A stretch of 64,000 nt of DNA from Thermoplasmatales archaeon. GTDB lineage: Archaea > Thermoplasmatota > E2 > UBA202 > JdFR-43. This document shows, in pieces, positions 38,862 to 41,083 of the stretch (its first letter is position 1; each line of letters starts with the position of its first letter). A model generated the notes under the pieces. The model saw only the letters and a list, made by a program, of their open reading frames with translations. It made no database searches and was not told the origin of the DNA. The stretch lies in assembly GCA_014361195.1 (NCBI GenBank), contig JACIWA010000001.1:124001-188000 (forward strand). The letters are read 5' to 3'. Both the position numbers and the translations under genes were made by a program.

Positions 38862-39758
38862 ATGAAATTTATAATATTTGGCGCTGGCGCAATTGGCTCA
38901 CTTTTTGGAGGATTACTTTCAAGAAAAAATGATGTTTTGCTTGTGGGAAGAAAGGAGCATATTGAAGAAATAGAAAAAAATGGGCTAATTGTGGAAGGCT
39001 TTACCAATGAAATTTTTTATCCTAAGACTGAATGGGATGGAAGCAAATATGATTTTGTTATTCTTACAACAAAAGCATATGATACAGAAAAAGCGGTGGA
39101 TGAAATTTTAAGAAAATTTGGAGAAATTCCTATTATTTCAATTCAAAATGGTTTGAGAAATGAAGAAATTATAGCAGAGAAAATGGGGATTGAAAATGTT
39201 ATTGGAGCACTCACCACTCATGGAGTAACATTTATTGGGAATGGAAGGATATATCATGCGGGAAAGGGAGAAACAATAATAGGGGAGTTAAGCGGTGAAA
39301 TAACTGATAGAATAAAAAATATTTGTAAAACATTTAACGAATGTGGAATTGAAACGAAAATAAGCGGTGAAATAAAGAAAGAGAAATGGAAAAAAGCAAT
39401 AGTTAATTCCGCAATAAATGGTCTGACTTCTATTTTAAGATGTAAAAACGGGGAGATAATTAAAAATGAATATGCAATAGAATTAATAAAAAAAATATGC
39501 ACTGAGGCAATTGAAGTTGCAAAAGCAGAAGGAATTGAGATAGAGGATATAATTGAAAAAGTGAAAGAAGTTGCAGAAAATACTTCAGAAAATATTTCTT
39601 CAATGCTACAGGATATAATTTCTGGAAAAAAAACAGAAGTAGATGAAATAAATGGAGAAATAATAATAAGGGCAAAAAAACATGGAATAAAAACTCCAGT
39701 AAATGAAGTGATATATAGCTTAATAAAAGCAAATGAAAGTGTGCGGCATCTGGGTTGA
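38862..39758 (+). CDS. panE: 2-dehydropantoate 2-reductase (ketopantoate reductase)
   Basis: About 298 residues from the ATG at 38862, which begins the Rossmann motif MKFIIFGAGAIGSLFGG; a TTG at 38841 would add seven unlikely residues and sits on the TATA region. Other marks are TTKAYDTEKAV, SIQNGLRNEE, and the KWKKAIVNSAINGLTSIL segment with the catalytic Lys and Asn. The enzyme makes pantoate for CoA with NADPH. The last 19 nt overlap, in antisense, the probable H/ACA RNA. Confidence 0.93.
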   Translation: MKFIIFGAGAIGSLFGGLLSRKNDVLLVGRKEHIEEIEKNGLIVEGFTNEIFYPKTEWDGSKYDFVILTTKAYDTEKAVDEILRKFGEIPIISIQNGLRNEEIIAEKMGIENVIGALTTHGVTFIGNGRIYHAGKGETIIGELSGEITDRIKNICKTFNECGIETKISGEIKKEKWKKAIVNSAINGLTSILRCKNGEIIKNEYAIELIKKICTEAIEVAKAEGIEIEDIIEKVKEVAENTSENISSMLQDIISGKKTEVDEINGEIIIRAKKHGIKTPVNEVIYSLIKANESVRHLG

Positions 39759-39797
39759 CCTAACGCTCATTGATCACGCAGGGGCCCGTGATGCCGC
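39740..39797 (-). ncRNA. Probable H/ACA guide RNA (one hairpin)
   Basis: A GC-rich island in an AT-rich gap. On the minus strand an 8-bp stem GCGGCATC/GATGCCGC (39797-39790 with 39750-39743) is followed at once by an ACA box (39742-39740). The sequence inside gives two free strands (about ACGGGCC and TCAACCCA) as a pseudouridylation pocket around an upper stem (CCTG.CG with CG.TTAGG). The tip UGAU-CAA-UGAG allows tandem sheared G-A pairs, as in the L7Ae-binding K-loop. A competing hairpin ATCACG/CGTGAT is also possible. It lies downstream of the L7Ae operon and antisense to the last codons of panE. The target is not identified. Confidence 0.5.
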
Positions 39798-39879
39798 TGT
39801 CGCTCCATATTTTACCTCCATTCATTTTTCATAGAGGTCTTAAGATGGAGCTAAAAATATATCTGCAAAATATATAAAT

Positions 39880-40332
39880 TTAATCCTCAAAAATCCATCT
39901 TTCATCATCCATGCTATATTCCACTATTTCATCTTTGCTAAACCACAATTTTATTTCTTTTTCAGCGGTTTCCTTGCTATCGCTAGCATGTATTATATTC
40001 CTCCCTATATCTTGAGAAAAATCTCCTCTTATTGTTCCTGGCATTGCATCGCTTGGATTTGTTGGGCCAACAATCTTTCTAACTCTTGAAACCGCATCTT
40101 TTCCTTCAACAACCATTGCAAGAACTGGACCACTTGTTATATAATTTATCAGCCCATCGAAAAAATTCTTACCTTTATGAGCCATGTAATGCTTCTCCGC
40201 CATCTCTCTAGATATTTTTAAAAATTTAATTGCTACTATTTTAAATCCACAATCCTCTATTCTCTGCAAAATTTTGCCGATTAATCTCCTCTGCACACCA
40301 TCTGGCTTTATCATTAAAAAAGTTCTTTCCAT
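39880..40332 (-). CDS. ndk: Nucleoside diphosphate kinase
   Basis: 150 residues, full length. It transfers phosphate between nucleoside triphosphates and diphosphates through a phosphohistidine. The catalytic His is in NIIHASDS at about residue 113, and the N-terminal MIKPDGVQRRLIG and the PGTIRGDF motif are present. It is the last gene of the L7Ae, S28e, L24e, Ndk run, a widely conserved archaeal order. Confidence 0.97.
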   Translation of the reverse strand: MERTFLMIKPDGVQRRLIGKILQRIEDCGFKIVAIKFLKISREMAEKHYMAHKGKNFFDGLINYITSGPVLAMVVEGKDAVSRVRKIVGPTNPSDAMPGTIRGDFSQDIGRNIIHASDSKETAEKEIKLWFSKDEIVEYSMDDERWIFED

Positions 40333-40717: not shown

Positions 40718-41083
40718 TCATCCCTTTATCTCCTTCACTTTCTTAACAACTTCTTCAAAAATTTCTTTCGCATCTCCCTCGCTTATTATCGCAACAACAG
40801 ATGCCTGCACCTGCAGGCCAGCTGCTCGCCCCAGCTCCTCCTTTGAAGGAACATAGGAATAGGGCACGTTTTTTTCCTCGCATAGATATGGCATGTGAGC
40901 GAGTATTTCTTCAGGAGAAACATCTTTCGCCATTATAACAAGCTTCGCTTCCCCTCTTTCTACCGCTTTTGTTACCTCATTAGCTCCCTTCTTTATCTTT
41001 CCACTGCTCCTCGCTTTCTCAACCAGCTCATACGATTTTTTAACTATCTCTTCAGGTATTTCAAACTTTACATAGATTGGCAT
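40718..41083 (-). CDS. rpl7ae: Large ribosomal subunit protein eL8 / K-turn binding protein L7Ae
   Basis: 121 residues. L7Ae binds K-turns in rRNA and in C/D and H/ACA guide RNAs. The RNA-binding helix [14 protein letters not shown] is at about residues 33-46, and [11 protein letters not shown] and the LGRAAGL loop follow. Unlike many starts here, the ATG has a strong AGGAGGC site 7 nt upstream, in a leader that can fold into a hairpin. Its operon ends next to the probable H/ACA RNA. Confidence 0.97.

Follow-up and report, generated by a model that had tools for sequence, protein, structure and literature searches.

A probable HgcG-like box H/ACA guide RNA antisense to the end of panE in a Thermoplasmatales archaeon

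At the end of panE in a Thermoplasmatales archaeon, a short stretch of the minus strand (positions 39797 to 39740 of the 64,000-nucleotide window analyzed here) has a GC content of 62%, against ~30% around it, and can fold into a GC-rich hairpin. What this element encodes is the question addressed here. The original prediction was a single H/ACA RNA hairpin of about 60 nt. We now assign the element, with high confidence on sequence evidence, to the archaeal box H/ACA guide small RNAs (sRNAs) as an HgcG-like, divergent homologue of HgcG/Pab40, and put the probability of this explanation as a whole at roughly 90%. The RNA is a further example of an already known kind. The hairpin stood as first described, but its extent did not: the RNA spans ~112 nt and has two hairpins (39851 to 39740, minus strand), of which the original one is the second.

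Hairpin 2 reads GCGGCAUC-ACGGGCC-CCUGCG-UGAUCAAUGAG-CGUUAGG-UCAACCCA-GAUGCCGC-ACA from 39797 to 39740. The structure proper (39743 to 39797) comprises an 8-bp lower stem (GCGGCAUC/GAUGCCGC), a pocket, and an upper stem with one bulged nucleotide (CCUGCG/CG-U-UAGG), delineated by folding and covariation. The coordinates, 8-bp basal stem, pocket, ACA, and UGAU-CAA-UGAG tip reported initially were all recovered by sequence inspection and folding. The strand folds with an energy of -25.2 kcal/mol (z = -2.7), and none of 200 shuffled sequences was equally stable. The 5' guide strand, ACGGGCC (39783 to 39789), has a GGGCC core that is invariant in the window's family (f1) and reads GGGUC in most other families; the 3' guide strand, UCAACCCA (39751 to 39758), was delimited by target analysis and keeps a CAACC core in most homologues. 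The kink-loop, UGAUCAAUGAG (39766 to 39776), with tandem G.A pairs, is a predicted L7Ae site; its GA..UGA is invariant in a 12-sequence alignment, in which the N.N pair below the loop covaries, with both sides changed in 7 of 12 rows. The ACA box lies at 39742 to 39740, and ANA occupies the same place in all 40 aligned homologues.

A scan against Rfam at gathering cutoffs returned tRNA only and no H/ACA match. A relaxed scan matched HgcG/Pab40 (RF00064) at 39905 to 39709 (E = 2.4e-11, 47.8 bits), and this match revealed a first H/ACA hairpin at 39851 to 39802 (minus strand), with its own kink-loop, UGAAAAAUGAA, a lower stem GCUCCAU/AUGGAGC, an upper stem, and a GACA linker (39801 to 39798) that aligns as its ACA box. 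Sub-threshold matches to the same family were found in 10 of 10 f1 relatives tested, and relatives scored 32 to 54 bits, all with E values of ≤ ~1e-5. Because the score is below the RF00064 gathering cutoff of 77 bits, the RNA is named HgcG-like and is not counted as a member of the Rfam family. A whole-genome search with RF00064 gave no match anywhere, and controls were equally without a match. Among relatives' sequences, two tRNA genes on the minus strand (L008:1127-1268 and L009:733-874) are interrupted by ~70 nt and overlap a weak hit to sR3, a C/D-box RNA known from tRNA-Trp introns.

Both hairpins have an ACA/ANA box 3' of the lower stem and a kink-loop with tandem G.A pairs. The pocket-closing pair of hairpin 2 lies 16 nt from ACA, within the range of 14 to 16 nt for archaeal box H/ACA sRNAs, and the GA stems comprise 9 bp plus one bulged nucleotide in hairpin 2 and 10 layers in hairpin 1. 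Hairpin 2 departs here, as a point against the assignment, from the productive folds of a P. abyssi survey, which had only 14 to 15 nt and 10 bp (PMC4652768); a distance of 15 to 16 nt is given as general elsewhere (PMC7991803).

Homologues were detected at the DNA level in 13 of 40 relatives. A covariance model built from 12 sequences, including that of the window, found a single full-length copy per genome in 61 of the 80 genomes examined from the class, among them all 17 of the family, and the RNA is also present in nine more genomes of the phylum. Named records with the hairpin 2 motif are Thermoplasmata metagenome-assembled genomes (JdFR-43, HyVt-387, B78_G9, and others). In the 12 family sequences, aligned with MAFFT and not fitted to the model, 96.6% of cells are paired and six pairs are changed on both sides. 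In the alignment of 40 homologues, which was fitted to the model and so favors structure, 94.7% of cells are paired, against 37 to 47% in slid controls, and both partners have changed in 25 of 28 base pairs, a result reached by none of 500 shuffles. The compensatory changes in relatives that had been proposed as a check are present far above control in both alignments. Together with the ACA/ANA boxes, the kink-loops, the homology to HgcG/Pab40, the conserved guide strands, and the encoded protein partners, they bear out the identification as an H/ACA guide RNA.

Those partners are Cbf5 (457 bits) and Nop10, both encoded in the genome, and an L7Ae/L30e-family protein encoded in the window at 41083 to 40718. 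The analysis thus covers structure, conservation, encoded proteins, and complementarity in relatives; expression, ribonucleoprotein assembly, and rRNA modification we infer as follows. A box H/ACA sRNA of ~112 nt would be transcribed on the minus strand, driven by a promoter of its own where the NDK gene ends. Cbf5-Nop10-Gar1 would assemble on each hairpin, and L7Ae would dock on each kink-loop. Both strands of a pocket would pair with rRNA on either side of a uridine, which Cbf5 would convert to pseudouridine. In the lineage, hairpin 1 would act on the equivalent of E. coli 23S U2496 and hairpin 2 most likely on U2555, giving two predicted pseudouridines in the peptidyl transferase region, the latter in the A-loop.

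A search of the window's assembly found neither 16S nor 23S rRNA, and relatives' rRNA was used for target analysis for that reason. Eight relatives from the class have both the RNA and their own 23S rRNA; stacking energies were calculated over all 23S uridines and summed over homologous positions. In the 23S rRNA of one relative (L026, genome G033), an insertion of several hundred nucleotides follows E. coli position ~1931, next to helix 69, and looks like an intron with an open reading frame inside it.

For hairpin 2, the best site over the eight genomes is U2555 in the A-loop (GGGGUUGU-UC-GCCCA), with a combined energy of -159.4. The target first proposed, UGGGUUGA-UN-GGGCCCGU, was only approximately right; a scan for that exact sequence in the organism's own genome, whose assembly is without the two rRNAs, did not single it out, yielding six matches with three mismatches versus four in the control. 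In loose mode, 1 of 1,500 permutations did as well at U2555 in all eight genomes, and in strict pairing none of 1,500 did so in the five genomes of families f4 and f5. In f1 and f2, which include the window's family, 64 of 1,500 permutations did as well, and the pairing there works only if a mismatch beside the pocket is tolerated, in a mode added after the data were seen. The window's own hairpin 2 guides ranked U2555 first (-20.1) and U2836 second (-18.6) on the 23S rRNA of a family member (G014). We favor U2555 as the predicted hairpin 2 target with moderate confidence, somewhat better than an even choice.

The same H/ACA RNA could direct hairpin 2 to another uridine, a less probable but serious alternative. 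U2586 is the second-best combined site over the eight genomes (-116.1), and it corresponds to position 2621 of Haloarcula marismortui, proposed as the target of the halobacterial homologue of Pf7 stem II (PMC2584109); even so, U2555 outscores it in all eight genomes, and pairing at U2586 leaves two guide nucleotides unpaired next to the pocket. In the window's family the competitor would be U2836, near the 3' end of 23S rRNA, which ranked first for G014 before the pocket mismatch was allowed but has no conserved pairing outside the family. U2836 was dropped as a candidate on this ground.

For hairpin 1 in relatives, the combined energy at E. coli 23S U2496 (GGCUUGC-UA-CUUCGAUGU) is -139 over the eight genomes, against -56.5 at the next site, and none of 1,500 permuted guides did as well. 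Uridines at 2493, 2496, and 2511 match the spacing of the pseudouridines at 2589, 2592, and 2607 of T. kodakarensis 23S rRNA, of which 2592 is the equivalent of the P. abyssi site guided by Pab40 (PMC6138745). By numbering arithmetic and this spacing, U2496 is probably the known Pab40 site, the equivalent of P. abyssi U2588.

Complementarity to this site is kept in 37 of 39 relatives and lost in the species of the window. Its pairing score there is -3.0, compared with values between -14 and -26 in nearly every relative and -16.7 in a relative of the same genus, whose hairpin 1 still matches U2496. Both guide strands have diverged: the 5' strand (39844 to 39839) reads CUUAAG here, a divergence confined to this species, and CGAAG in nearly all relatives, and the 3' strand (39813 to 39809) reads AAAAU, one nucleotide shorter than the GCAAG type of relatives. 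The distance from pocket to ACA is 13 nt instead of 14. Against a relative's rRNA, the window's hairpin 1 guides found no site better than random guides did. The only other clear exception is L086 (family f3, genome G018), whose hairpin 1 is poorly aligned and is possibly missing or replaced; hairpin 2, the third element described below, and the panE/NDK/S28e neighborhood are present at that locus.

In this species the guide function of hairpin 1 is probably gone, an example of a guide hairpin parting from its target in a single species, although loss, retargeting, and coevolution with the species' own rRNA may each account for diverged guides. Exchange of both guide strands with stems, kink-loop, and ACA kept might also mean that hairpin 1 has been retargeted to a non-rRNA or serves hairpin 2 only as a scaffold on which proteins dock, which we regard as unlikely. 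The divergence of hairpin 1 and its shortened distance to ACA could also be read as decay of the whole H/ACA gene, no longer used in this species; that reading is improbable, given that the hairpin 2 guides, both stems, the kink-loops, and the ACA boxes remain intact, as does the TATA-like box.

This TATA-like box, TTTATATA (39878 to 39871, minus strand), was identified by sequence only and lies right after the NDK stop codon, ~27 nt upstream of the RNA. It falls within positions -31 to -24 relative to hairpin 1, a block with an AT content of 0.87 to 0.97 in the 40 homologues. Since the box is conserved, it suggests that the RNA is served by a promoter of its own rather than by that of the L7Ae operon. 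Transcription would start at or near 39851, which fits a report that the Pab40 transcript begins with the first nucleotide of the H/ACA motif (PMC4652768). The L7Ae operon had been noted as a neighbor; it is indeed close by in the window, but this is no general feature, as NDK and S28e were seen as neighbors only in the window's genus and in one f3 genome (many other loci are short). With its own putative promoter and with these neighbors rare, the nearness of the operon carries no functional implication.

On the other side, panE (ketopantoate reductase; Pfam ApbA and ApbA_C; 38862 to 39758, plus strand) converges on the RNA. Its last 19 nt, encoding VRHLG and the stop codon, are the antisense of hairpin 2 over the latter's 3' guide strand, the 3' strand of the lower stem, and the ACA, and the first three bases of the guide strand are antisense to the stop codon itself. 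This overlap, predicted at the outset, is kept in most f1 genomes, and panE is the downstream neighbor in families f1, f2, and f3. A GC-rich hairpin between the convergent panE and NDK genes might be taken for a bidirectional terminator or processing signal with no guide function, a reading rejected as barely credible since conservation of the guide strands, kink-loop, and ACA equals or exceeds that of the stems, no U-run directly follows the stem, the neighbor observed in most relatives is not NDK, and families f4 and f10 have full-length homologues with both hairpins where the locus shows no PanE match.

Outside f1, a third conserved element lies ~110 nt 3' of hairpin 2 (L067, L068, L080, L081, L083, L085 to L087, L089, and L075). 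Its outer stem, UGYCGC/GCGRCA, contains a single covarying pair, and its CUGCUGC and ACAGCG motifs are invariant; apart from HgcG, no Rfam family gave a match at its place in these loci. The element is absent from the window's family, in which panE antisense follows hairpin 2 directly.

Among known systems, Afu-4 of A. fulgidus (Af4.1, Af4.2b, and Af4.3) is likewise described as a multihairpin H/ACA RNA. Af4.2b guides U2601 of A. fulgidus 23S rRNA (PMC4652768), which offset arithmetic places at approximately E. coli 2555, where hairpin 2 is predicted to act; this is a lead to the target rather than a test of it. Af4.1, by contrast, is a reported guide of a 16S site. HP1 and HP2 of H. volcanii, the homologues of Pf7 stems II and III, are homologous to the same Pab40 hairpins (PMC2584109) but are separated by a long spacer, and their proposed targets are E. 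coli 2586 and 1915/1917.

HgcG/Pab40 itself, named Pf7 in P. furiosus, shares with the RNA described here two H/ACA hairpins in the same order, the ACA linker between them, the guide motifs of the second hairpin (5' GGUC and 3' AACCC in the Rfam consensus), and a predicted hairpin 1 site at the equivalent of P. abyssi U2588 (PMC6138745), an equivalence drawn from uridines at -3, 0, and +15. It differs in its guide letters, in the score of 47.8 bits against a cutoff of 77, and in that hairpin 1 of the window is without a target match; Pf7 is reported to have three motifs (PMC2584109), and the window's RNA has no third. The known range of this pseudouridine guide, with Thermococcales and other Euryarchaeota in it already, is hereby extended across an uncultured class of Thermoplasmata, in which the default Rfam threshold misses it.
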